A DNA stretch of 38,685 nucleotides, taken from IMG/VR virus record IMGVR_UViG_3300022707_000592, positions 1 to 38,685 of that record; one strand, written 5' to 3'. The stretch's first letter is position 1; each line of letters starts with the position of its first letter. The notes beneath the pieces were generated by a model. That model was not told the origin of the DNA. It made no database searches and saw only the letters and a program-made list of their open reading frames with translations. Made by a program: the position numbers and the translations under genes. Positions 159-38,685 of the stretch are shown one piece after another. Source of the DNA: a virus.

Positions 159-377
159 CTACTTGAGAGAGTTATAAGCCTTACGTAACATACCGTATAG
201 CATAGTTACTCCTGCAATGACTGCTGTTACTTGCTGGATTATATCTACAACTACTGTTTCTGTTACACCTATTCCCATAATTTGAAATACTCCTAAAAGG
301 ATAGGAACTAGAGCCATAAGAATACCTTGTACTGTCATTGATAGTTTTTTAGGATCACTTGATGATTGAAATATCAT
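159..377 (-). CDS. putative holin
   Basis: 72-residue hydrophobic protein. Two membrane segments are visible (about residues 18-37 and 44-63), separated by a short turn, with a basic C-terminus (KAYNSLK). Size, two-segment topology and position directly after the endolysin support a holin-type role: membrane permeabilisation that times release of the amidase. The start is ATG at 377 in the context TAATATG, one base past the amidase stop. No family signature beyond topology is recognised. The terminator 8 nt downstream makes it the last gene of the late operon. Confidence 0.7.
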   Translation of the reverse strand: MIFQSSSDPKKLSMTVQGILMALVPILLGVFQIMGIGVTETVVVDIIQQVTAVIAGVTMLYGMLRKAYNSLK

Positions 378-378
378 A

Positions 379-894
379 TTAGAATCGTGAGATGAGTTCA
401 GTTACTAACTCTCTCAGTGTATAGTCTTTTAATGTTTTGGGTTCTCGACCTACGATTGCATTTACAACCAGTTTACTTGCCCAATTATCTGGTAACTTTT
501 TACCAAAGCATGACTTCTCTGTGAATTTCCTATGTGGTACTACTTTGTTTATTGGTATGCCGTATTTCGCTGTGAGACGCACTAGGAGGCTCTGTAACGA
601 GTTTTCCTGCTCTTTAGTAGGTAAGGTAGCATCGAAGTTTCCCGACAGGCATACGCCAATAGAATCACGATTATGACCTAGTGTATGTGCGCCATGATAG
701 TTTTCCTCCCTACCTTTACGTATTGAGCCATCTTTCTCTATTACATAGTGATAACCTACATCCTCCCAACCTCTACCTTTAACGTGCCAGTGCCTAAGTG
801 TTTCTAAAGTATGATGAGAAGTATCAGCTAAAGGATTTGTTGCTGTCCCTGATGTATGATGTATGATTATCCATTTGGGTTTGTTTAATGCCAT
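379..894 (-). CDS. N-acetylmuramoyl-L-alanine amidase (endolysin, PGRP/Amidase_2 type)
   Basis: 171 residues with the Amidase_2/PGRP fold signature seen in T7 lysozyme. The N-terminal IIIHHTSG supplies a zinc histidine (H12/H13). Next come a GYHYVIEKDG segment carrying the conserved tyrosine (about residues 47-56) and the ENYHGAH segment. The C-terminal PHRKFTEKSCFG supplies H121 and C129 as zinc ligands, with K127 at the catalytic lysine place. The enzyme should cleave the amide bond between MurNAc and the stem peptide. No signal peptide is present, so export depends on the adjacent holin. The extra C-terminal 30 residues are not recognised. It sits in a lysis cassette between an XhlA-like membrane protein and the holin. 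Confidence 0.92.
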   Translation of the reverse strand: MALNKPKWIIIHHTSGTATNPLADTSHHTLETLRHWHVKGRGWEDVGYHYVIEKDGSIRKGREENYHGAHTLGHNRDSIGVCLSGNFDATLPTKEQENSLQSLLVRLTAKYGIPINKVVPHRKFTEKSCFGKKLPDNWASKLVVNAIVGREPKTLKDYTLRELVTELISRF

Positions 895-7547: not shown

Positions 7548-9236
7548 CTAACCTCCAAATATATCGTTCAAAGCTTTAATAATCACAGCACGACCTTCGG
7601 GTGACGCTTTTTGTAGTGTCGCAACAACCTTTTCAGTAGCTCCCGATATTGCCTGTAATCCCAATGCTATCTTAGTAGCACGTTCTGGGTTTACAGCTCC
7701 TGCGGTAGTTTGACGAAGAAATTCACCTATATTAAATCCTGCTTTCTCTGCACGTAATGGTTCAGTTAATGTAGTCCTAACTGCTTCTTCTGCTCTAAAC
7801 TCTGATGGAGTAATACCTATCTTCTTCAGGAAGTCATCTATGTCACGTTCACCGAGACCAGATTTGTCTAATGCATTCTTTAGTTTCTCTGATACTTTAA
7901 GTAGGTCTTTTTGAGATTTGAACTGCTGTTTACCAAAGATTTGTTCCATAGTTTCTGCTAATTGGATGTCTTTAGAGAACTTGGTGTTTATTTCCTTTAA
8001 TATAGGTGTTTCACTAGAGATAGTCTTTCGTACATTCTGGGTTAAATTGTCTACAAAGCTATTTAGATCTTGTCTCACAGCATCAGCACCAGTACTTCTG
8101 AACTTGATGTTATCCAACTTGTTCATGAGCAACCTCAAATCCTTACCTGTAAGTGACTTCTGGTTGTTTATTAGATTGATAGCATTAAGAGCTTTCTTAG
8201 ATGCTTGTTTATTTCCTCCAAAATCAGCATTTATGAAGATGTCGTCTAGGTTTCCACTTGCTATTTCATCTACATTTACTCCAAAATCATCTAATACACT
8301 CAAAGCATTCTTTCCTAGGTTACCTTTAGGTATATTGATAGTTCCTAATTCTTCTAATCCTTCTCCAAACGCTTTACTAGCATCTCTCTTAACCTTTGAT
8401 ATACCTTCTACTATCTGTTTTGAGTTCTTTTCTAATACGTTAGTAAGTTGTGCCTTATCTGCACTACCTAGTTCTTTTAGACTCTTCTGTATAGCTTTAG
8501 GATTAGCTGATATGGCATCTATATTAGCTCCTAGTCCCTTTAGAAGTCTTTTAGATATATCTCCTATAGTTTTGGTTATAAACCCTATAGGTTTAGAGAT
8601 TACCTTACCAACACCAGGTGCTACAGCTTCAACACCACCAGCTATGGCAGTCTCTAATCCTACTTCTCCTTCCTGTGCAGTGGCAACACCAGCAGATGAT
8701 ATAACTCTAGGTGCTATCTTTTGTACACCTTTGAGAGCTTTAGTTGCTTTAGCTATTTTACCAGCAGGTACAGCAAATTCAGCTACTTGTTCAGCAAATT
8801 TACCTACCTTTTCCCCTGGTGTTTTAGCTTCTAAGAATTCTTCAGCTTTTCTATTAGCTTCAGTACCTTCTGTAAATATATCTGCTGTATCTAGTCCTTC
8901 TCCTGAAATAGCTTTAACCAAATCATCTAATGCAAATTTACCTATCTTTGTTCCTAGTTCTCCTAGTCCTTTGATTGTAGATAGAACTCCTTTACCTATA
9001 CCTATAGCAACATCCTGAATAGCATCATCCCTCCTACCTCTTAGTTTACCTCTGATACTTGTCTTGTCTCTTTGTACAGGTTGAGTAACAGTACGTGTGA
9101 ATGCTTTGGTATCTACACCTTCTATCTCGTAGCCACGTCTAATAAACTCAGCCATGATTTGACTGTCAGTCTTACCAAGTTTTCTACCTTCCAGCACTAC
9201 TGGTCTTATTTGTTCTTGTGTTAGTAATGTAGCCAT
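7548..9236 (-). CDS. internal virion / ejection-type protein A
   Basis: 562 residues from the preferred ATG at 9236 (MATLLTQEQIRPV), which follows the upstream stop as TAATATG; an in-frame start 24 codons further up would overlap the previous gene. The N-terminus looks like a small helical domain (about 1-50). Residues about 70-240 are rich in G, A, V and I with membrane-active character (IGKGVLSTIKGLGELGTKIG). The rest is lysine-rich helix. Its position between fibre and neck genes, next to another coiled-coil protein, fits the pilot or ejection proteins of short-tailed phages that enter the cell envelope with the DNA. This is inferred from composition and context, not a recognised family. 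Confidence 0.6.
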   Translation of the reverse strand: MATLLTQEQIRPVVLEGRKLGKTDSQIMAEFIRRGYEIEGVDTKAFTRTVTQPVQRDKTSIRGKLRGRRDDAIQDVAIGIGKGVLSTIKGLGELGTKIGKFALDDLVKAISGEGLDTADIFTEGTEANRKAEEFLEAKTPGEKVGKFAEQVAEFAVPAGKIAKATKALKGVQKIAPRVISSAGVATAQEGEVGLETAIAGGVEAVAPGVGKVISKPIGFITKTIGDISKRLLKGLGANIDAISANPKAIQKSLKELGSADKAQLTNVLEKNSKQIVEGISKVKRDASKAFGEGLEELGTINIPKGNLGKNALSVLDDFGVNVDEIASGNLDDIFINADFGGNKQASKKALNAINLINNQKSLTGKDLRLLMNKLDNIKFRSTGADAVRQDLNSFVDNLTQNVRKTISSETPILKEINTKFSKDIQLAETMEQIFGKQQFKSQKDLLKVSEKLKNALDKSGLGERDIDDFLKKIGITPSEFRAEEAVRTTLTEPLRAEKAGFNIGEFLRQTTAGAVNPERATKIALGLQAISGATEKVVATLQKASPEGRAVIIKALNDIFGG

Positions 9237-9237
9237 A

Positions 9238-10887
9238 TTAAATGTTGAATTTAAAATCTGATTCATCACCGATTTCTGTGAATCCAAAACTATCGAATAT
9301 TCCACCAATTTCTGTGTCCTCTTCGATGCTAGAAGGTTTAGTAGCTAATTCGTCTTTGAGTCCATCTACTCGTGATTTAATACCTACATAATCTTCTTCA
9401 AAGTTAGATACATCTGTTTGGTTTTTAGCACTGTTCACTAGAAGATTTTCCATACTACGTGAAAGTACATCAAGCATGATTGTTGCTATAAATGCGTTTT
9501 CTTCCTGAGTGTTCTTTAGTGTTGGCAGTGTTTGTTTATAGTTATCAATGTCAGCTTCAGTCAATACACCCACTTCACCGAAGATACCTCTAGCTACTGT
9601 AGGAATAAGTCCTTGAATGGCTGCATTGAATCCTGCTACATCTGGGTTTCCTTTTAGTTTCAATAGGAAGTTTTGCGCTCTGCCAGAAGCACGTCCTGTT
9701 TGGATAGCATTCATATCTTTAGCACCTTTTTTGTCTCCCCCGTCTGCTGAAATAGAACCCAAGAATGTTAGTAGGCTTTCAGTTCCTCCAAGTGCTGCCT
9801 GAATCTGTCCGAAACTCTCTAGTTGTCCTTGAGTTAGTTTACCTTTATTTCCTTTACTTCCTTGAATCCAAGCTATAGCACGTTCAGGAGAACCTACAGG
9901 AAAGGCTTCAGGATTTACAGAATTTCCAGTTGGAGCTAACTTGCTGTTTAATTCTCGTATCCTTAACCTAGCTAATTCAGTCTCGTGTCTAGCACGCATG
10001 TCTATACCGAACTTACCTGCTGCTTCTAGGGCAGCAGCAACATCTGTAGCTCCCTGTACTGCTTGGAGAACACTGTTACCAGCACCATTCTGTTTAGCTT
10101 GGAATAGGATGTTTAACTTAGATTCTTCAAGAGCTTTGAACTTATCTCGTTCTGCATCCAACTCATTCTTCCTCTCTGCTATCTTCTCTTGGAATTGACG
10201 TTCTTCTAGTTTATTAAATTCATTGTTTTCTAACATGAATTCAAGTCCTTTTATCTGAGCATCCCTGTCTGCAAATTCAGCAGTAACCTTTCTATCTATT
10301 ACAGCTCTAGCATCATTGAACTTATTAGCCCTAGATAAACGTATAACCTCTAGGTCTGCTAGAGATGAGTTATGTTTACGTGTTCTTTCTGCAATGGCAG
10401 CGTTTCTTTGTCGTGCAGTAAGTCCTGAACGTGTCTGTAAGTCCTCACGTTCTCGTCTGAAAGCTAATTGTGTTTCACGTATCTCATTCTGAATATCTGT
10501 GAGTTCTTGTTCTGTTTCTATAAACTCTTGACCTGTTTGTAGTTCAGCTTGCCTACCTTCTCTAGTACCAAGTCCTAGAAGTGAAGCTACACGTTCTGTT
10601 ATGCCTCTTTTTTCAGCTCTAGCTTCTTCTACACGTTCACCTGATACTAATGGGTCTCTCTCCTCTGGTGCTTCATCTGGTACAGGAGAAAAGAATGGTT
10701 CAACTTGAGGTGTTGGTTCTGGTAAATTAAACTGAGCTTTAGGAGCTTCTAATTGGTCTGTATCAATAGAAACACCCTCTAAAGGTTTAGAAGCAGGTAC
10801 TACTACTGTCTCTCTACCTTTAGGAGTATCTACTATCCTTGTTGGTGTTTGAGGTGTCACTTTTTGTCTCTCTATTGTTATAACCAT
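9238..10887 (-). CDS. internal virion / coiled-coil structural protein B
   Basis: 549 residues. A proline-rich N-terminal 90 residues (KPLEGVSIDTDQLEAPKAQFNLPEPTPQ) leads to a short LLGLGTREGRQ segment, then about 150 residues of charged coiled coil (REREDLQTRSGLTARQRNAAIAERTRK and beyond). A C-terminal helical domain (about 340-500) contains ARGIFGEVGVLTEADIDNYKQTLP. The acidic extreme C-terminus ends FKFNI. It is coupled by TAATATG to protein A downstream. Such paired, long helical proteins in podovirus operons are usually packaged inside the head and ejected with the genome; that role is inferred from context. Confidence 0.6.
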   Translation of the reverse strand: MVITIERQKVTPQTPTRIVDTPKGRETVVVPASKPLEGVSIDTDQLEAPKAQFNLPEPTPQVEPFFSPVPDEAPEERDPLVSGERVEEARAEKRGITERVASLLGLGTREGRQAELQTGQEFIETEQELTDIQNEIRETQLAFRREREDLQTRSGLTARQRNAAIAERTRKHNSSLADLEVIRLSRANKFNDARAVIDRKVTAEFADRDAQIKGLEFMLENNEFNKLEERQFQEKIAERKNELDAERDKFKALEESKLNILFQAKQNGAGNSVLQAVQGATDVAAALEAAGKFGIDMRARHETELARLRIRELNSKLAPTGNSVNPEAFPVGSPERAIAWIQGSKGNKGKLTQGQLESFGQIQAALGGTESLLTFLGSISADGGDKKGAKDMNAIQTGRASGRAQNFLLKLKGNPDVAGFNAAIQGLIPTVARGIFGEVGVLTEADIDNYKQTLPTLKNTQEENAFIATIMLDVLSRSMENLLVNSAKNQTDVSNFEEDYVGIKSRVDGLKDELATKPSSIEEDTEIGGIFDSFGFTEIGDESDFKFNI

Positions 10888-10888
10888 A

Positions 10889-12685
10889 TTATTCGTTTAT
10901 TGTTGTTTTGTTAATAATTCTTAGTTTGTAAATTTCATCTTCTCCCGTGAATTGCATACTTACTTTAAATCTTATCCATGGAGATTGATTCTTTAGTGCT
11001 GTTGCTATGGACTTCCACTGTTTCTTTTCTGTTTGAAGTGCTTTACCTGCCTTTTTCCACTTCTCAAAGAATGCTAGAGCTGTACCTGAAGCTCCTGTAA
11101 ATGTCTCATCAAGGTCTACTGTATATGTACCTCCTGATTCTGAAATAGCTTTGATGTGAGCTGATTTACCTGAACCTGTACCCTGTATTATCTGTACTTC
11201 ATCTCCTACAACGTAAGCAGATACATTAGTAGTAGTTGTAAATGTATTACTGTCTGTCCATGTAATAGTGGCTTGTAATTCTACGTCTTCTGTTGTTTTG
11301 TACTTAACTACTATCTTGTCTGCACTATCTAACAGAAGTTTGTACACAACGTATATTTTCTGCCATGAATCCTCTATTCCTACTGAGAAGAGCTTGTTTG
11401 TAGTGAAGAAACCCCATTTTTGAGTAGTATCTATTGAATCGTCTATGAAAAGTCCACTCTTTACTGTTGTTGCATCTGAAAAGTAGTTAGCACCGAATAA
11501 GTAAGTACCATTTCTATCTGAATCACTGTTACCGCTAGAGGCATAAACCAAAGCACCTACGTTTGATAGTTTAAACTGTCCATGATCTGTTAGGTTTGAT
11601 ACTCCAGTATCAGAATTGCTAGAAAATGAAGCTGAAATCTTATGATATAGGCCTTTTACCTGTTCATCGTACTCCCATATTCCTGATGGTACGTTTACAT
11701 CTTGAGTGGCTCCATTATCCTCATAGTTTCCTTTAATTAGTATGTTTATACGTCCATTGACAATAGCCATACCATTATGTCTTATATATGCGTCTCTATC
11801 TGTTAATGTTGATGAGAATTGTCCTGAAAGGTCATAAAATGGCTTATCTTCATCTAATGGTAATCGTGAAACAGGTACAAAAGCTCTACCATCGAACCCT
11901 AATAGTCTTCCTTCAACGTCCATAAAGTAAGGTAGTCCACGCCATATCACACAAGATAGAACACCATAAGTGTCGATAGTGTATTTAGCTCTAGGAGTGT
12001 CTTCTGTAGCTCCATCCCATTCGAATATAGTAGCTTGGTCACCTGCTTTGTTTATAGTTCCTACCCAAATGCTTTCTTCTGCTGCACACATACACATAAT
12101 CTTTAAGTTCTTAAATCCTGACAAGTCTAGGGTAAAAGATGTTGTAGAAAACACCTCTGAAGTATCAAAAGAGAATATAGCTGTTCCATTTACGTCTGTG
12201 TAGTACATCCTATCAGCATAAGGAAGTAAAATATGTAGTCCTGTGGTTAAACTTCCTTTTGTGTTTGACCAACTAGAAGCTCCTTTAGCTAAGTCACTGA
12301 TATTAGTTGTATCTGTAACGTAAAGTTTATTGTTAAATACAGCCATATCAATCCTGTCACGAATAGCTAATGAAGGTGTACCAGTTTTAGTGTCTTCAGT
12401 AAATGAATCACTAGGGTTCACGTCTCCTAGGAAGATACCACCTGTTTCTGTAGCTATAACGTACTCACTAGAAAGGTCATTATCATAATCAAACTGAGCT
12501 ATAGCCATTGGAATACCCATATCAGCATCATCTGCGTCACTGAAAGAGAGTTTACTACGATTCAACCTAATAGCACCCCTGTTATCAGTTAGGTTTAAGT
12601 TAAATGATGTCCTCAAATCACCTAAAATATCCCCATCATTGATGTGGGTTAGCACTCTAGTTTGTTGGTTAGGTAAAGTAATCAT
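10889..12685 (-). CDS. tail / neck structural protein with beta-propeller-like repeats
   Basis: 598 residues. After a short N-terminal region (MITLPNQQTRVLTHINDGDILG), residues about 70-340 show repeated four-strand blocks of the type YVIATETGGIFLGD, LYVTDTTNISDL, MYYTDVNGTAIFSFD and IWVGTINKAGDQATIFEWDG, a pattern typical of a beta-propeller. The C-terminal third carries further beta domains and ends with IRFKVSMQFTGEDEIYKLRIINKT. Tail-tube or packaged-DNA stabilisation proteins of podoviruses (for example P22 gp10 type) have comparable size and position. Fold and role are inferred; no close family is claimed. Confidence 0.6.
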   Translation of the reverse strand: MITLPNQQTRVLTHINDGDILGDLRTSFNLNLTDNRGAIRLNRSKLSFSDADDADMGIPMAIAQFDYDNDLSSEYVIATETGGIFLGDVNPSDSFTEDTKTGTPSLAIRDRIDMAVFNNKLYVTDTTNISDLAKGASSWSNTKGSLTTGLHILLPYADRMYYTDVNGTAIFSFDTSEVFSTTSFTLDLSGFKNLKIMCMCAAEESIWVGTINKAGDQATIFEWDGATEDTPRAKYTIDTYGVLSCVIWRGLPYFMDVEGRLLGFDGRAFVPVSRLPLDEDKPFYDLSGQFSSTLTDRDAYIRHNGMAIVNGRINILIKGNYEDNGATQDVNVPSGIWEYDEQVKGLYHKISASFSSNSDTGVSNLTDHGQFKLSNVGALVYASSGNSDSDRNGTYLFGANYFSDATTVKSGLFIDDSIDTTQKWGFFTTNKLFSVGIEDSWQKIYVVYKLLLDSADKIVVKYKTTEDVELQATITWTDSNTFTTTTNVSAYVVGDEVQIIQGTGSGKSAHIKAISESGGTYTVDLDETFTGASGTALAFFEKWKKAGKALQTEKKQWKSIATALKNQSPWIRFKVSMQFTGEDEIYKLRIINKTTINE

Positions 12686-14970: not shown

Positions 14971-16125
14971 TCATTCCCCCGTTTCAAAATGTTTAACAAC
15001 ATCTTTGATAGCTTCATCCCAAAACTTTATGTTGTCCTTGTATTGCCAGTTCTTTTCAACATATTCCTTTGCGTTTTGACCAATCTCATCCCTTAAAGTT
15101 TTGTCTTCTATTAGCAACTCTAAAGTCTCCTCCCATTCTTTAGGAGTGGACACTAGGAAGCCCGTATTGCGGTCTATAATCGTCTGTATGCCACGTACAG
15201 GTTCATGGTAGGGGTATACCCTACTAGCTATTGTAGGGATACCCTTCATGCTGTATTCCATCCATTTGATGTGAGACTTAGATACGTTAAATTCATTGTC
15301 AGTTAGAGGTGCAAGTCCAATATCCCATCTAGTAGACATGATTAGTTCAGGGAAGCTCTTCCAAGATGGTGTTCCAGGCATAATACCTACCCTTTTACGC
15401 TTTTCTTCATCAAAATCCTTAAATAGGTCTTCATATGAGCTATCACGTATTCCACCTATCATCCCTAGATACAGATTGTCGTATTTATCCATCAGTTTGC
15501 TGATTACAGGGAGTATTAGCTTCAAATCATTGTCATGGGTGATAGAACCATGCCATCCAAGAGATATAACGTCATCTTCCCTCAGAGCTTCACCTTTCCA
15601 ATCTTTAGAATCGTTACAGTTAGGGAGTATGTATATAGGCATCTCTATCTTTAGTACATCTTTGAGGAATTTAATATAGAAATCCTTTAAAGGTTGAGTT
15701 GAAACAAAAAGAGCATCAACCATAGACATAGAAGCTATAGCAAATGCTCTTTTAACTCCATCTTCTTTGTAACCTTTCTCGTAGGCTGGGTTATCTTCAG
15801 AGATGTTTATTATGTTGTCGTCTAAATCCATGACTATAGGGATTTCTAGGTGTTTACATGCTCCTATAATCTTACCTGAATTCTTAGAATCAGATTGTTT
15901 TATAACTACCATGTCAAAGTCCCTGAAGAGTTTAACGTAAGAATTGAAGGTATCTTTGTGGTCTATGAATCCTACAAGGTCTGCACCAAGTACAGTAGTC
16001 TCATAACCTAGCTCTTTAAGGTACTCAGCAGGTTTATGAGACCTATAATAACCTATACCACCATACTCACCTGTGGTTTGTCTGTAGGGAGTATTCCAGT
16101 CTGTTGTAATGAACAGTATCTTCAT
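14971..16125 (-). CDS. glycosyltransferase, GT-B fold, family 4-like
   Basis: 384 residues beginning MKILFITTDWNTPYRQTTGEYGGIGYYRSHKPAEYL, the usual first Rossmann half of a GT-B enzyme. The second half has SLGWHGSITHDNDL (about 203-216), DIGLAPLTDNEFNVSKSHIKWMEYSMKGIPTIAS (about 295-328) with the sugar-nucleotide-binding region, and NTGFLVSTPKEWEETLELLIEDKTLRDEIGQNAKEYV, the typical C-terminal helix block of family 4 enzymes. It should transfer a sugar from a nucleotide-activated donor. Placement inside the virion operon, between capsid and neck genes, suggests glycosylation of a virion protein, or of a host envelope component. Confidence 0.88.
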   Translation of the reverse strand: MKILFITTDWNTPYRQTTGEYGGIGYYRSHKPAEYLKELGYETTVLGADLVGFIDHKDTFNSYVKLFRDFDMVVIKQSDSKNSGKIIGACKHLEIPIVMDLDDNIINISEDNPAYEKGYKEDGVKRAFAIASMSMVDALFVSTQPLKDFYIKFLKDVLKIEMPIYILPNCNDSKDWKGEALREDDVISLGWHGSITHDNDLKLILPVISKLMDKYDNLYLGMIGGIRDSSYEDLFKDFDEEKRKRVGIMPGTPSWKSFPELIMSTRWDIGLAPLTDNEFNVSKSHIKWMEYSMKGIPTIASRVYPYHEPVRGIQTIIDRNTGFLVSTPKEWEETLELLIEDKTLRDEIGQNAKEYVEKNWQYKDNIKFWDEAIKDVVKHFETGE

Positions 16126-16793: not shown

Positions 16794-17732
16794 TTAGACG
16801 TTTGCACCTAGACTAGCTGCTGTTCGTAGTTCGATTAACCAAGCTGAGTTAAGAACTTTGGCAACGAAGAATGCCTTCCAGCCAACTGTACTAAATAAGT
16901 CCAGTGGGTTAGAAGTATCTCCTACACCTGGGTTCTTTACAATAACTCGTGGGCCGTTTTGACCTGCTAGATCAAGAATACCATAAGCATGCTTTCCGAA
17001 GATAAAAGTATTGTAGATGTCTACGTTACCTGAACCTGCGTTTGCTGATAGTTGTTCGTTGTCAGCTTCAAAGAATTTGATTCCATGAAGCATTCCAATT
17101 TCACCATTCTTAATAAATTCTGATGTAGTGTAACGATTAGCGTCAAGCCATTCTGTATCACCACGTAGGTCAACTGCTACAGTCACAGGAATAATAGCAT
17201 AGTATATATTCCCTTCAAATTTGATAGCTTTTGCAAGTTTTAGAGTTCGTACTGCTGCACGAAGTTCTACACCATCAAGGATGTCTGTTGCTGTCACAGC
17301 AGTCAAATCGAGACTATTCACGATCTGTGCTGTTCCACCTCCTGTTAATTCTAATTTGATTAAGTTGTCAATAGATTCACCAGCATTCTGTCCCATTATA
17401 TCAACTTGTTCTTTCAATCCTTCATCGATTGAAGTTAGTTCATATAGGTCAGATGACTGTGTGAATGTTGCATATTCTACTGCTATTGCTGAAACAACAG
17501 TTGTAGACATAGCAACTGAGCTAGGGTTTGAACCTTCAGTAATACCTGTAGTGATAAGTGCTAGTGGAGTCATTCTGTTCCACTTAACTGTCTTACCAAG
17601 GTTTCGACCAATTCTCTTTACTTGCGCTCCAACAGCATATACTAATACTGCTTTAGCCCTTTCTAGGAAAACTGTGTCGAAAAAGGTACTCATATGATCC
17701 GTCAAACCCGTTGTTAAGTTATCTGAAGCCAT
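16794..17732 (-). CDS. major capsid protein, N4-gp56 family-like
   Basis: 312 residues from ATG at 17732 (MASDNLTTGLTDHMSTFFDTVFLERA); nine further in-frame codons upstream are less likely. Hallmarks of the N4-gp56 capsid group: the LxxxLxxxMxxFFDxxxLxxA start, AVGAQVKRIGRNLGKTVKWNRMTPL, TTGITEGSNPSSVAMSTTVVSAIAVEYATFTQSSDL, and the central GESIDNLIKLELTGG. It forms the HK97-fold icosahedral shell. The gene follows the scaffold-like gene and precedes overlapping hairpins, as expected for a strongly expressed late gene. Confidence 0.9.
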   Translation of the reverse strand: MASDNLTTGLTDHMSTFFDTVFLERAKAVLVYAVGAQVKRIGRNLGKTVKWNRMTPLALITTGITEGSNPSSVAMSTTVVSAIAVEYATFTQSSDLYELTSIDEGLKEQVDIMGQNAGESIDNLIKLELTGGGTAQIVNSLDLTAVTATDILDGVELRAAVRTLKLAKAIKFEGNIYYAIIPVTVAVDLRGDTEWLDANRYTTSEFIKNGEIGMLHGIKFFEADNEQLSANAGSGNVDIYNTFIFGKHAYGILDLAGQNGPRVIVKNPGVGDTSNPLDLFSTVGWKAFFVAKVLNSAWLIELRTAASLGANV

Positions 17733-22109: not shown

Positions 22110-23426
22110 TTATATCATGGATGTAGAATTTCTCCTATTTCTCATGATTCTGTCCTCTTGAGCGAAGTCTTCTTGATATACTTTGGTTACAGCCCAATAC
22201 CTCATCATATCTGCACCATGAGAGTTAATATCATGCACTGGTTTGTTCTTATACACTCCTCTCTTCTCATCAAACTCCTTTGTATAACGTCTCAGCCTGC
22301 TAAGCAATAGGGAACATTTCTTCTTATCAAACCATAAAGTAGGGAATCTAATACGCAAAGCATCTATCCCATCTTGAATAGGTAACTTGGGAACTGTGTT
22401 GTAGTCTACTCCAAATCCTTGAGCAGTTTCTTTACGAGTAACACCTGTTCCTAGTTCTCTTACTTCAATATCATGGGGGGCGTGATGTTCAGCATAGACG
22501 TAGTCTTTGTCTTTCATTCGATTGATAGCTTCTTTAAGGGATTCTCCCTCGAACTCATCGTAATCTATCACTCTCCATTGGTTGTGTGCTTTCTGGAAGT
22601 AACCTATGGCAAAGCTGTCAGCTATTCCTAGATCACACCAAGTATAGACTTCAAGCATTGGATCGTAGAGACCTTCAACAATTCTATCTTTAGCATCCCT
22701 TATCTGTGTTCTGTAGTACGAACCTTCAACACCAAAACCTTCCCAACTTCCATCCCTCCAAGCTCTACGAAGTTCCTCATCTTTAATGGCTTCAATTTTT
22801 TTAACATACTTAGGATCGGATTCCATTAAAACCTGATTATCATCCATTGTTGATGGAACAAACACTCTTGTTAAATCACCATCTTCATTAACAGTTTTAT
22901 ATATTTTATCCATATCTGGTATATCAGGAATACTCCATCTCTCTTTAACCCATTCATAGCCAGCACCATCTGGGTTTGTTGTACAAAATATTTGAGACTT
23001 GATCCCCATAACTGTTGAACGACAAGAAGCTAAAAGTTTCTCATAGTTACTCTCTCGTGAGATGTGAGTGAGTTCTTCTATCAATATCTTCTGGTATTCA
23101 TGACCTTGGTACTTTTGGTAAGCATCTTTGTCAGCTAAGTGTCCTGTTTTAATGATAGCTCCTGAAGGAAATGTAAACTTGTCTCCAGTAAACCTACCAC
23201 CAGCTCCACTATAAAAATCTTTTGCTCTATCTATCCAGTCAGAAAGATCAACAGCATGTTGACGAATTACTAATGCTCTATACTTTGGTTTATCTAAATC
23301 ATACATCAACCATGCCATTCCAGCGTCAGTCTTTCCTCCACCTCTTGCTCCTCCATAGAGAATCTCATCTTCTATTCTACGAAGAACTATCTCTTGTTTC
23401 GGTTGTGGTTTCCATTTTATCTTCAT
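22110..23426 (-). CDS. terL: terminase large subunit
   Basis: 438 residues. The ATPase domain has Walker A GGARGGGKT (25-33), Walker B ILIEE (114-118) and the coupling segment SQIFCTTNPDG (about 144-154). The nuclease domain shows WCDLGIADSFAIG (D265), VYAEHHAPHD (acidic E313) and HDINSHGADMMRYW (D399, D406), the usual metal-binding acids of the RNase H-like fold. It pumps DNA into the procapsid and cuts the concatemer. The first 50 bp overlap the end of the small-subunit gene, indicating coupled translation. Confidence 0.93.
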   Translation of the reverse strand: MKIKWKPQPKQEIVLRRIEDEILYGGARGGGKTDAGMAWLMYDLDKPKYRALVIRQHAVDLSDWIDRAKDFYSGAGGRFTGDKFTFPSGAIIKTGHLADKDAYQKYQGHEYQKILIEELTHISRESNYEKLLASCRSTVMGIKSQIFCTTNPDGAGYEWVKERWSIPDIPDMDKIYKTVNEDGDLTRVFVPSTMDDNQVLMESDPKYVKKIEAIKDEELRRAWRDGSWEGFGVEGSYYRTQIRDAKDRIVEGLYDPMLEVYTWCDLGIADSFAIGYFQKAHNQWRVIDYDEFEGESLKEAINRMKDKDYVYAEHHAPHDIEVRELGTGVTRKETAQGFGVDYNTVPKLPIQDGIDALRIRFPTLWFDKKKCSLLLSRLRRYTKEFDEKRGVYKNKPVHDINSHGADMMRYWAVTKVYQEDFAQEDRIMRNRRNSTSMI

Positions 23427-28007: not shown

Positions 28008-28619
28008 TTAGAAGGCGACTTCTTCTCCAGTTTCAGGGTCTACGACCATACTCTGCATTCTTTTGTATTCTTCTGATTCTTTTATGTCTTCCTGTAGGAA
28101 TTCTGGCATTTCATTAAACTTATCAGTTTCAAAGTTATCTACATCAAATGTGTAGCTGGGGTTAATCTGATCTGGTACTTTTTGGTCTTTCATTAACTTT
28201 GTTATGTTTTCTATGATGTTGTAGTTGTTTCCCGATTTTTCAGACTTCTTATGTCCAACAGTTATTAAACATGGGCTTCCTATCAAATCCCATACGTTGA
28301 TGAAATCAAAACCATCTTCATCATCCTTTGTAGGTTCTAGTTCACAGGCATCTGCTACTTTTCTTAGATTTGCTCTTTCATTGAAAGACAGTGTGTATCC
28401 AGTTGATATTACACGTGGTTGTTCTCCTTTCTCTTCTTTGAATACTTTTAGTTCTGTTGGTAGTTCGTAGGTAATACGGATTTTATCCTGTATTGCTCCC
28501 TGATACCCCTCTACATGTCCAAGATGGATAATGCTGTAGATACGAGCAGGATATGTTCCGTCTTCAATTATCTCTCTCTGTGGCATAGGGTTATCTTTTG
28601 CTTTTAGTTCTGTTTTCAT
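28008..28619 (-). CDS. putative ssDNA-binding / recombination accessory protein
   Basis: 203 residues. The order REIIEDGTYPARIYSIIHLGHVEG, DKIRITYELPTEL, VISTGYTLSFNERANLRKVADAC, FDFINVWDLIGSPCLITVGHKKS, NYNIIENITKL corresponds to a phage protein group with an OB-fold-like pattern that often sits near replication and recombination genes. The acidic C-terminal tail (PEFLQEDIKESEEY) fits an SSB-type partner-binding end. If right, it would coat single-stranded phage DNA. Moderate confidence: the pattern is recognised, the activity is inferred. Confidence 0.6.
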   Translation of the reverse strand: MKTELKAKDNPMPQREIIEDGTYPARIYSIIHLGHVEGYQGAIQDKIRITYELPTELKVFKEEKGEQPRVISTGYTLSFNERANLRKVADACELEPTKDDEDGFDFINVWDLIGSPCLITVGHKKSEKSGNNYNIIENITKLMKDQKVPDQINPSYTFDVDNFETDKFNEMPEFLQEDIKESEEYKRMQSMVVDPETGEEVAF

Positions 28620-34607: not shown

Positions 34608-35021
34608 TTAGGATTTCTCTAGTTTATCCACAAGCTGTTTATATTCCTCTAACACTATTACGTAGTGATCGTATGCTTTAGTTATTATTTGGCGGTCTTT
34701 CTCCAACTTAGCCATGTACTCTTCTCCTTCATCCCTCAACATTCTTTTATAAAACTCTGCACCCATTCCACCATAGTTCATATTACATTTGTAGCACTGG
34801 GGTCTAAGTACACGTAAATCGTATTTCAGAGAAGCACCTAATGATGCCTTAGCCCACATATGTCCCGTGTGCCAATTTTTACCAACCAAACCTGTCATTC
34901 CGCATGTATAGCAGACATTGCCATGTTTCTCTCGTGTAAGGAGCTTACAATACACCCAGAGCTTCCTTTGGATGGTAGATACCTTAGATTTACTCTTTTT
35001 CTTTAAAGGTGTGCGTTTCAT
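34608..35021 (-). CDS. ninG: NinG/Rap-type recombination nuclease
   Basis: 137 residues. A basic N-terminus (KRTPLKKKSKSK) leads to CYTCGMTG (C37, C40), the HTGHMWAKAS segment (H51, H54) and CYKCNMNYGGMGAEFYKRM (C76, C79). This C-x2-C, H-x2-H, C-x2-C-N order with the GHxxxKxxxxxLRxDxxN-like middle matches the NinG (Rap) family of lambdoid and other phages, which acts on branched recombination intermediates. It is followed by the early operon's small genes and preceded by a terminator and a leader. Confidence 0.78.
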   Translation of the reverse strand: MKRTPLKKKSKSKVSTIQRKLWVYCKLLTREKHGNVCYTCGMTGLVGKNWHTGHMWAKASLGASLKYDLRVLRPQCYKCNMNYGGMGAEFYKRMLRDEGEEYMAKLEKDRQIITKAYDHYVIVLEEYKQLVDKLEKS

Positions 35022-36836: not shown

Positions 36837-37187
36837 TTACAAATTCTTTATGTATTCTTTGATTGACAGCCCACCTATTAATGCGTATATCATGCTATAC
36901 ATTTTGTGTTTCCATTCAGCAATATCATCATTGAACTCGTGTCTTGATGGCATTAAATCTATCCAACCCTCTACCTTACCTACAGCTTCCCATGCTTTTG
37001 GATCTAGGAACATAAACTCTAGATCGTAAGTATTCTCTATTGCAGGTGCTTCAGGATTATCGTTGTCAGTAGTTTTAATTCTAAATGTGTTATTTTGTAT
37101 TAACTTATATTCTATAACCTCTAAATTCCACTTAGTTTTTAACCACTCTCCCTCTATTGTTTTGTCTATGAATTCTTTAATGGTCAT
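36837..37187 (-). CDS. hypothetical protein
   Basis: 116 residues: MTIKEFIDKTIEGEWLKTKWNLEVIEYKLIQNNTFRIKTTDNDNPEAP, a beta-rich middle and a helical C-terminus (SMIYALIGGLSIKEYIKNL). No recognised family. It overlaps the transglycosylase-like gene by 4 bp, so it may be an inhibitor or partner, though that is only inference. Confidence 0.6.
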   Translation of the reverse strand: MTIKEFIDKTIEGEWLKTKWNLEVIEYKLIQNNTFRIKTTDNDNPEAPAIENTYDLEFMFLDPKAWEAVGKVEGWIDLMPSRHEFNDDIAEWKHKMYSMIYALIGGLSIKEYIKNL

Positions 37188-37660
37188 GATTTAGGTGGCA
37201 ACCCAATGCCAGGTTTATTAGTAATGTTCCAACGTTTAGCAAAGTTCTCTTTGCAGAAGGTATCTAAACCTAATTCTTCTTCTAGGTTCGTTCCTACTAC
37301 GCTACAACGCCAGTGCATCCAATTACTTCTTCTATCTGAGATCATAGCGAATGTAAGCTCCTTTTGTAGAGAACAATCAAATATGTTTTCAGTTGTGGTA
37401 TTGAAGCCGTATAGTTTTCCTTGTGTGAGCCATGTTTCCATTTGAAACTGTAAGCATCCGTTTGATGATTGACCATTCCAGTCTGTTTCCAGTACAACAT
37501 CTGGGTCTCCTTGTGATTCTGCCTGAACTAGTGTGTCTATCCATGTTTTTAATAAGTTTGATTTCTCTATTGGTTTTTCTATCACTATATATGTAACTGC
37601 TGGTTTCATGGTATCTATTTTAGAATAATGACCTTGAAAGTATGCAGTTGATGGATTCAT
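37184..37660 (-). CDS. lytic transglycosylase-like protein, N-terminus possibly frameshifted
   Basis: 158 residues from ATG at 37660. IDTLVQAESQGDPDVVLETD supplies the catalytic-type glutamate (E48), SSNGCLQFQMETW (about 65-77) corresponds to the G-L-x-Q-F-x-x-x-T-W motif, and AMISDRRSNWMHW follows as in SLT-like domains. It should cleave peptidoglycan glycan strands. The frame stays open upstream and encodes a textbook membrane anchor (HIAIIVVGFIIL) directly before this ATG, but no in-frame ATG/GTG/TTG exists there; an ATG at 37718 is one base out of frame. Either the protein is truncated, the start is unusual, or a base was gained. The anchor would fit a cell-wall enzyme at the inner membrane. 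Confidence 0.65.
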   Translation of the reverse strand: MNPSTAYFQGHYSKIDTMKPAVTYIVIEKPIEKSNLLKTWIDTLVQAESQGDPDVVLETDWNGQSSNGCLQFQMETWLTQGKLYGFNTTTENIFDCSLQKELTFAMISDRRSNWMHWRCSVVGTNLEEELGLDTFCKENFAKRWNITNKPGIGLPPKS

Positions 37661-37717
37661 TAATATTATGAACCCAACTACTATTATTGCTATATGTTTT
37701 ATAAGCGTTTTGAGACA

Positions 37718-37805
37718 TTGCGTGGTCGGGACATACCCTGTATTGAGCTAATAGATTTTGTTTGGCAACTAAAAACATTAGCGGGGGTATGTGCCCATCA
37801 CGCAA
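37718..37805 (-). ncRNA. rod hairpin A of the structured region
   Basis: Stems in order: TTGCGTG/CACGCAA (37718-37724 with 37799-37805), GGG/CCC (37728-37730 with 37794-37796), CATACCC/GGGTATG (37732-37738 with 37785-37791), GCTAAT/ATTAGC (37747-37752 with 37777-37782). All 23 pairs are perfect, separated by small internal loops. On the minus strand the rod ends at the misframed ATG (37718-37716) of the transglycosylase-like gene, so it could also act as its leader. Confidence 0.75.
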
Positions 37806-37944
37806 CACCTCGGGGTCACTCCCAACATTCCCTAAACTCTCTACCTTAGAGAGTATTGCCTTGTAAATTTAATTGTCGTCAAATTAACAATTAATAACTT
37901 ATTCCATCTAAGATGGACAGTTTAAGGAGTGTTGTGCCAGAGAT

Positions 37945-38037
37945 GAGCTTGATGGTATGAGTTTGTACAATTATCGTGTCAGAGGTATTAGGGTGCTACC
38001 CTCCTCTCCACGAACCAGTACTCACACCATTAAACTC
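37945..38037 (-). ncRNA. rod hairpin B of the structured region
   Basis: GAG/CTC (37945-37947 with 38035-38037), TTGATGGTATGAGT with ACTCACACCATTAA (37949-37962 with 38020-38033, one mismatch and one wobble), then CGTG/CACG (37975-37978 with 38009-38012), AGAGG/CCTCT (37981-37985 with 38003-38007) and GGGT/ACCC (37991-37994 with 37998-38001). A single extended rod with bulges, about 30 pairs in all. Confidence 0.75.
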
Positions 38038-38364
38038 ACCTCTCTTCTCTCGATAACTAATGAATTCCTTATTGGATGGGCAAGGATTTGCAAAATCTTT
38101 ACTAGATTGACGTATGGTGGGAGTTGCAACCCACATCTCACTTTTCAGTGATGTCCTACTTACTTAGACGACATTCCGTCACCACCCAACAAGAAACTCA
38201 TAACTGCCGACTTGTAGATGCTATGTAGGGTACTCGATTGGTAAGATATCACGATCTCAAGGAAGATTGTCGTTTTTCCTATTAACTAAAGTAAATTAAT
38301 TATATATAAAATATGAGTACCCAACATAACACCCACAGATGTTATCGTTGCATTGCTGTATTGC

Positions 38365-38478
38365 GACCCGACCTCTACTCTCCACCCGAAGGTCGAGAGT
38401 AATAGTGGACACTCTATCTATAAGCATTGGTGGATTTCGCCACCCACGATCTCTTAGATAGAGAGTAGAAGTAGGGTC
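38365..38478 (-). ncRNA. branched domain E of the structured region, switch-like
   Basis: GACCC/GGGTC (38365-38369 with 38474-38478) and TCTACTCTC/GAGAGTAGA (38374-38382 with 38461-38469) close a domain that holds CTCTATCTA/TAGATAGAG (38412-38420 with 38455-38463) and GGTGG/CCACC (38429-38433 with 38440-38444). A rival hairpin TACTCTC/GAGAGTA (38376-38382 with 38395-38401) uses the same strand, as does CGACC/GGTCG (38369-38373 with 38391-38395), so two folds compete. Confidence 0.65.
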
Positions 38479-38496
38479 TTGGATAGATACTGAGTA

Positions 38497-38575
38497 GTGA
38501 TGTGACACTGAATGGAATTGAACCATTGACCTTCCCCACTAAGTGAAGCTGCTCTGTCACTGAGCTACTCATCAC
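38497..38575 (-). tRNA. tRNA-like element with aberrant acceptor stem
   Basis: On the minus strand: GTAGCTCAG with D-stem GCTC/GAGC (38565-38562 with 38554-38551), then a weak anticodon arm (GCTTC...GGGGA, loop ACTTAGT), a 5-nt variable region AGGTC, and a good T-arm AATGG/CCATT with loop TTCAATT (38527-38511). Spacing from D-arm to T-arm is canonical. The acceptor is not: the 7 nt after the T-stem (CAGTGTC) do not match the 5' end, while GTGATGAG (38575-38568) pairs with CACATCAC (38504-38497) seven bases further on. Anticodon identity is therefore uncertain. It may be a decayed tRNA or a tRNA mimic belonging to the adjoining structured RNA. Confidence 0.45.
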
Positions 38576-38685
38576 ACCACAATTCAATATCTATCTCTAT
38601 ATTAAACTCAAATCAATACGAGTTTAATATTATCACTATAAAAGAACTAATTACATTATACAGCAAAACACCCCCTAGAGGAGGT
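38542..38685. repeat. 144-bp terminal direct repeat, right copy
   Basis: Exact second copy of bases 1-144. It joins the right end to the left end, so the holin gene near position 159 is directly upstream (minus-strand sense) of the tRNA-like element and the large non-coding block. Confidence 0.95.

Follow-up and report, generated by a model that had tools for sequence, protein, structure and literature searches.

The analysed window is the whole of contig IMGVR_UViG_3300022707_000592, a phage sequence of 38,685 bases that ends in an exact 144-bp direct terminal repeat (1-144 = 38542-38685). The presence of this repeat indicates that the phage genome is probably complete, with a length of 38,541 bases. 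Nearly all genes are carried on the minus strand, where the order is tail genes, amidase, a holin-like ORF, a terminator-like hairpin, a large block of RNA-like structure, an SLT-like gene and the early genes (Table 1). The terminal repeat spans the 5' part of the RNA together with the region upstream of it, and this 5' part is therefore also present at window positions 54-1. A consensus scan identified no promoter for the block, no terminator was seen at its 3' end, and no shift in skew occurs there.

Among the terminases related to that of the window phage are one from a TM7 phage and one from a contig binned to Patescibacteria, and this sequence relationship hints at a host from a candidate phylum. 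A search for terminases in the phylum of this bin, covering 380 genomes, found no closer phage. Elsewhere in the window, strong RNA structure is found within the major head protein gene (17236-17700, minus strand; z -6.3, 0/100 shuffles).

Table 1. Features of the RNA block, its genomic surroundings and the truncated tRNA-like hairpins of other contigs. Positions are those of the window unless a contig is named.
Feature	Position	Strand	Remarks
Amidase_2 endolysin gene	379-894	-	just upstream of the block on the circular map
Small holin-like ORF	159-377	-	label by position and composition only
Terminator-like hairpin	38670-38685	-	separates lysis genes from RNA
TATAAT, possible -10 box	38655-38660	-	sequence inspection; no recognisable -35; missed by consensus scan; candidate promoter only
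Whole RNA block, rods A-G in tandem	37712-38595	-	884 nt; 5' end at 38595
Rod A	38482-38595	-	12-bp helix GATAGATATTGA/TCAGTATCTATC, 3x3 loop, 9-bp helix GTGGTGTGA/TCACATCAC, tRNA-like tip
tRNA-like element	38503-38570	-	D-arm GCTC..GAGC, T-loop GGTTCAATTCC; degenerate acceptor and anticodon arms; no CCA
Rod B, branched	38365-38478	-	fold and stem finder
7-bp helix CGATAAC/GTTATCG around rods C and D	38051-38347	-	mean pair probability 0.92
Rod C	38213-38337	-	14 bp, T.T mismatch, 8 bp
Rod D	38060-38201	-	20-bp helix, then multi-branched tip
Rod E	37939-38043	-	12 bp, A.C mismatch, 11 bp; base motif AGAGGU/AUCUCU
Rod F	37823-37934	-	fold and stem finder
Rod G	37712-37811	-	13 bp, 1x2 loop, 4 bp, bulged C, 8 bp
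First gene 3' of the RNA, weakly SLT transglycosylase-like	37184-37660	-	Pfam PF01464, E 0.14
NinG, early gene	34608-35021	-	3' of the block in gene order
ssDNA-binding-like protein gene	28008-28619	-	early region
Terminase gene	22110-23426	-	early region
Truncated tRNA-like hairpins (G026, G023, G028)	L137 12118, 11309, 10395, 9559; L136 8810, 10120, 11013, 11429; L150 1342, 2710, 3399	- (L137); + (L136, L150)	

Architecture of the block and its tRNA-like tip

An earlier note on this DNA had placed a candidate giant ornate phage RNA at 37718-38575, an extent that proved nearly right: seven adjacent rods of 100-142 nt each span 38595 to 37712 on the minus strand. The same seven rods are recovered by a strand-symmetric stem finder, in which G.U and A.C are scored as equal mismatches. 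The inverted repeats described in the note are present, but its range of 5-14 bp understates them, as most rods contain helices of 12-20 bp. Its view that the block holds no credible gene was borne out, since stop-free runs reach at most 82 codons on either strand (table 11) and nothing opens beyond 101 codons when TGA or TAG is read as sense. A conserved protein frame, named in the note as evidence against an RNA, was not found. Repeats between rods are never longer than 19 nt.

The minimum free energy of the minus strand is -322.4 kcal/mol, compared to a mean of -237.4 (sd 5.9) for dinucleotide shuffles (z -14.4), while the plus strand of the block reaches a z of only -4.4. In 300-nt scans of the whole contig the block ranks top on both strands, and in a 911-nt tiling of the circular genome it ranks first for structure. 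The hairpin loop of rod D, UUGCAACU, contains the 6-nt palindrome UUGCAA, possibly a self-kissing loop.

The tRNA-like sequence at one end of the block, likewise mentioned in the earlier note, is real but degenerate. Its D-arm and T-loop are well formed, yet the Rfam tRNA model assigns the element 24.4 bits in cmscan, below the gathering score of 29 bits, and ARAGORN in default mode reports neither a tRNA nor a tmRNA. At a 95% threshold, ARAGORN returns a 72-nt 'tRNA-Thr(AGT)' whose acceptor has three wobbles and an A.G mismatch and whose anticodon stem is mismatched. Judged by gathering score and a paired acceptor, the element thus falls short of a tRNA cloverleaf. Pairing of the rod A flanks gains -28.5 kcal/mol as a duplex, beyond both the mean (-12.5) and the minimum (-25.8) of shuffled flanks (n = 500), and the 9-bp helix of the rod competes with the weak tRNA-style acceptor. 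The 12-bp and 9-bp flank helices place the element at the tip of rod A, which makes it a part of the RNA and not an adjacent tRNA gene; alternatively, it could conceivably represent a decayed tRNA gene trapped in the rod.

Blocks of similar build in related phages

Relatives of the phage were gathered via its terminase, head protein, amidase and ssDNA-binding-like protein, and their noncoding stretches, within some 3.75 Mb of DNA from related phages and contigs, were screened for equally strong folding. No sequence-alignable homologue of the block was found among phages and plasmids by blastn or among the related contigs. The blastn search against phages and plasmids returned only the tRNA part of the block, plus chance matches of 23-25 nt. 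Searches for relatives via the first gene 3' of the RNA, the structural protein 10889-12685, the amidase and the head protein yielded no or few useful contigs.

Two blocks built in a like manner were found. That of phage G044 (contig L238, 2613-1917, minus strand) contains five rods of 114, 183, 107, 173 and 99 nt; its region has a z of -15 and an excess of about -0.10 kcal per nt. That of phage G007 (contig L020, 5514-5895, plus strand) contains three rods of 97, 174 and 110 nt with an excess of -0.108 kcal per nt, although a longer stretch with 20 shuffles gives a z of only -3.7. Both blocks lie on the early-gene strand, each directly upstream of a same-strand gene, and neither has an Rfam match. 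The early genes in common include NinG (54% between the window and G007), an AKDP gene (44% between G007 and G044) and the ssDNA-binding-like protein (about 40% between the window and G044). Each of the three RNAs has three or more rods in a row, of about 100-180 nt apiece, and an excess of about -0.1 kcal per nt on the gene strand, the features by which the class is proposed to be recognised. In contig L239, which is close by its ssDNA-binding-like protein, no such block occurs in the part of the contig covered, and the RNA therefore seems to be an optional module. Most other related contigs, many of which are fragments, also have no such block.

Several other candidates were set aside: G026 because of small ORFs and T-arm hairpins, G010 because it folds equally on both strands, L247, L259 and L280 as ordinary intergenic sequence of other phages, and L253 because its palindromes surround ORFs. 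A loose scan for chains of rods was swamped by composition-biased DNA. The G010 element is a 450-nt noncoding stretch (L033, about 300-760) with a z of about -17 on both strands and no match in Rfam or in a blastn search of phages. L253 is a 68-kb phage contig in which tandem imperfect palindromes with GTTAGC/GCTAAC ends (15038-16113) resemble integron attC cassettes. G026, G023 and G028 each contain 3-4 intergenic truncated tRNA-like hairpins, composed of a stem of about 6-7 bp that resembles an acceptor, a connector of roughly 10 nt and a T-arm that contains GGTTCRANTCC, with neither D nor anticodon arm; a small hairpin comes next, and a gene starts some 40-50 nt past the T-arm. They look like repeated tRNA-like processing signals, for which mitochondrial t-elements offer a comparison. 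Contig L238 also carries a Cpn60/TCP-1 chaperonin gene (9015-10580), and chaperonin genes are annotated in two related phage records, MW202566 and MG269973.

The window, L238 and L020 RNAs have no alignable sequence between them. They share a motif at the rod base, nnnGGU on the 5' arm and AUCnnn on the 3' arm with a G.U at pair 5, and the motif at the base of rod E is common to L238 rod 3 and L020 rod 1. Six of the 12 outer pairs are identical in these three rods, which none of 1000 within-rod pair permutations reached, and a GU-UA step is present at pairs 5-6 in 6 of the 15 rods (p 0.012 by permutation, with the maximum taken across all steps and positions); these p-values are post hoc, because the motif was noticed after looking. 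The wobbles are also clustered along the rods, with p 0.0036 when all rods are combined, 0.042 for the window alone and 0.13 for G.U in the others alone. When a covariance model of rod E is searched, the expected rod comes out first both in L020 (14.8 bits; E of 0.065 over 16 kb) and within the L238 block (14.2 bits). These scores are low, with E values of about 0.07-0.1 per contig, and an unrelated hairpin of L020 reaches 13.1 bits. A correspondence of rods C-D-E to L238 rods 1-2-3, proposed from helix lengths of 14, 20 and 12 bp, is not relied upon, as the rod D model favours L238 rod 4 over rod 2. Palindromic loops are present in all three RNAs, six-nt palindromes being not rare by chance. 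Although these tests are individually modest and post hoc, the balance tips towards common ancestry or a common assembly principle of the three RNAs.

Comparison with known giant RNAs

Only a few giant ornate RNAs of bacteria and phages have been described; those of phages are GOLLD and ROOL, self-assembling cages of unknown purpose. OLE occurs in extremophile bacteria and is not known as a phage module. GOLLD forms a 14-mer nanocage. Both GOLLD and ROOL are RNA-only cages held together by kissing loops and A-minor contacts, both are found near tRNAs in phages, and GOLLD can hold tRNAs in its linker (PMC12286853).

The suggestion of the earlier note that the block is a candidate GOLLD or ROOL was not supported by the covariance searches that it called for. 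In Rfam searches at gathering cutoffs and at E ≤ 10, the latter a cmscan with all 4227 families, the only hits were the weak tRNA and chance-level ones; GOLLD, ROOL and OLE were all absent. The GOLLD model RF02032, searched directly at E ≤ 10, has no match in the window, G044 or G007, and the ROOL model RF03087 has none in the window at E ≤ 1, a weaker null since control genomes gave none either. The block is therefore not filed under either family. Like GOLLD, it is about 0.8-0.9 kb long, phage-borne, ornate and associated with a tRNA sequence, here only in the form of a degenerate tRNA-like element. It differs in its tandem rods and in its tRNA-like tip at the 5' end, and has neither a match to the Rfam model nor a recognised conserved 3' domain. 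ROOL is also a large phage or prophage RNA that often lies near tRNAs (PMC12286853), but the block is unmatched, exceeds the 574-position model and contains no recognised ROOL domain. Long coaxial rods in a large ornate RNA are shared with OLE, of which the Rfam-wide scan (E ≤ 10) gave no match. A tRNA-like domain inside a larger RNA is found in tmRNA and in viral tRNA-like structures as well; in the block, however, ARAGORN detects no tmRNA, there is no tag frame or CCA, and the acceptor and anticodon arms are degenerate.

A probable new class of phage RNA

With high confidence, the block encodes a large structured noncoding RNA of about 0.9 kb on the minus, or gene, strand. The giant ornate phage RNA postulated in the earlier note is upheld by strong strand-specific folding, by an asymmetry among wobbles and by the like architecture in two related phages. 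The asymmetry also bears on the rather improbable alternative of a DNA-level element, that is, an array of imperfect palindromes serving as replication origin, packaging or recombination site, or made up of palindromic mobile elements, in which the RNA fold would be incidental. Such an element would fit gene-free tandem palindromes adjoining the boundary between lysis and early genes, the plus strand of the block that also beats its shuffles, and the palindromes around small ORFs in L253. However, a decaying DNA palindrome would give G.T and A.C mismatches about equally, whereas strand-neutral stem finding counts 32 G.U against 13 A.C on the minus strand of the window (composition-adjusted one-sided p 0.0097). 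Other parameter sets point in the same direction (27:14, p 0.06, for the first; 24:8, p 0.007, or 0.010 composition-adjusted, for a stricter one). Pooling the three RNAs gives 65:30 (p 0.003), while L238 and L020 are each not significant alone in the unbiased count. The use of G.U in place of A.C, a single-sequence stand-in for covariation and not covariation itself, indicates that it is minus-strand RNA on which selection acts. The far stronger folding of this strand, the shortness of the inter-rod repeats, the lack of genes between rods and the unchanged skew at the block also argue against a DNA element.

A reading in which the block is not an RNA of its own but controls the following operon, as a long structured leader or an intergenic region (an attenuator, a stabiliser of RNA or an array for RNase III processing), is unlikely, though it deserves somewhat more weight than the DNA element. 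The block stands in line between the lysis genes and the SLT-like gene with no terminator at its 3' end, and the L238 and L020 blocks are placed directly upstream of a same-strand gene, too. Yet the downstream genes differ among the three phages, a terminator-like hairpin lies upstream of the block, and 380-880 nt of near-continuous rods far exceed known attenuators. The long near-perfect helices of 12-22 bp, found on the early-gene strand in both relatives, could also act as double-stranded bait in a decoy or sponge RNA that counters RNase III or host defence. Bait, however, would need neither branched tips and a tRNA-like element nor interruptions that recur regularly at fixed positions, and we consider this role improbable. 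Equally little weight is given to a very diverged GOLLD or ROOL out of reach of the Rfam models: similar size, phage origin, a tRNA-like element, rods with branched domains and the proximity of both families to tRNAs in phages (PMC12286853) speak for it, but none of the searches described above matched either family, nor did the two related RNAs match any.

The best overall explanation, which we regard as fairly likely, is a giant phage RNA of a new class, transcribed from the minus strand, built of seven rods and scaffold-like. The existence of two related phages with like-built RNAs and no fit to a known family makes a new class probable, and the evidence thereby favours what the earlier note had held open. 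That the window, L238 and L020 RNAs form one common class outside Rfam, in which the other two members are shorter with five and three rods, is likewise probable, and slightly more so than the full explanation.

As to function, a self-assembling RNA scaffold is tentatively proposed by analogy with GOLLD and ROOL. The rods would pack side by side via the shared features at their bases, and the palindromic loops would self-kiss to yield a multimeric RNA-only scaffold, as in the GOLLD and ROOL cages. The tRNA-like tip might allow host RNase P, RNase Z and T-loop modification enzymes to mature or bind the RNA; alternatively, the scaffold might present a tRNA mimic to the ribosome. It is a reasonable possibility, if short of an even one, that the class is new and modular: its members would differ in how many paralogous rods they have (three, five or seven), share a base motif and assemble into an RNA-only multimer, and the member in the window phage would carry a tRNA mimic at the tip of its first rod.

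With its countable rods, its short form of about 380 nt and its tRNA mimic, an independent class of this kind would offer a simpler setting for studying the use that phages make of such RNAs, and the series of seven, five and three rods would make modular growth directly testable.
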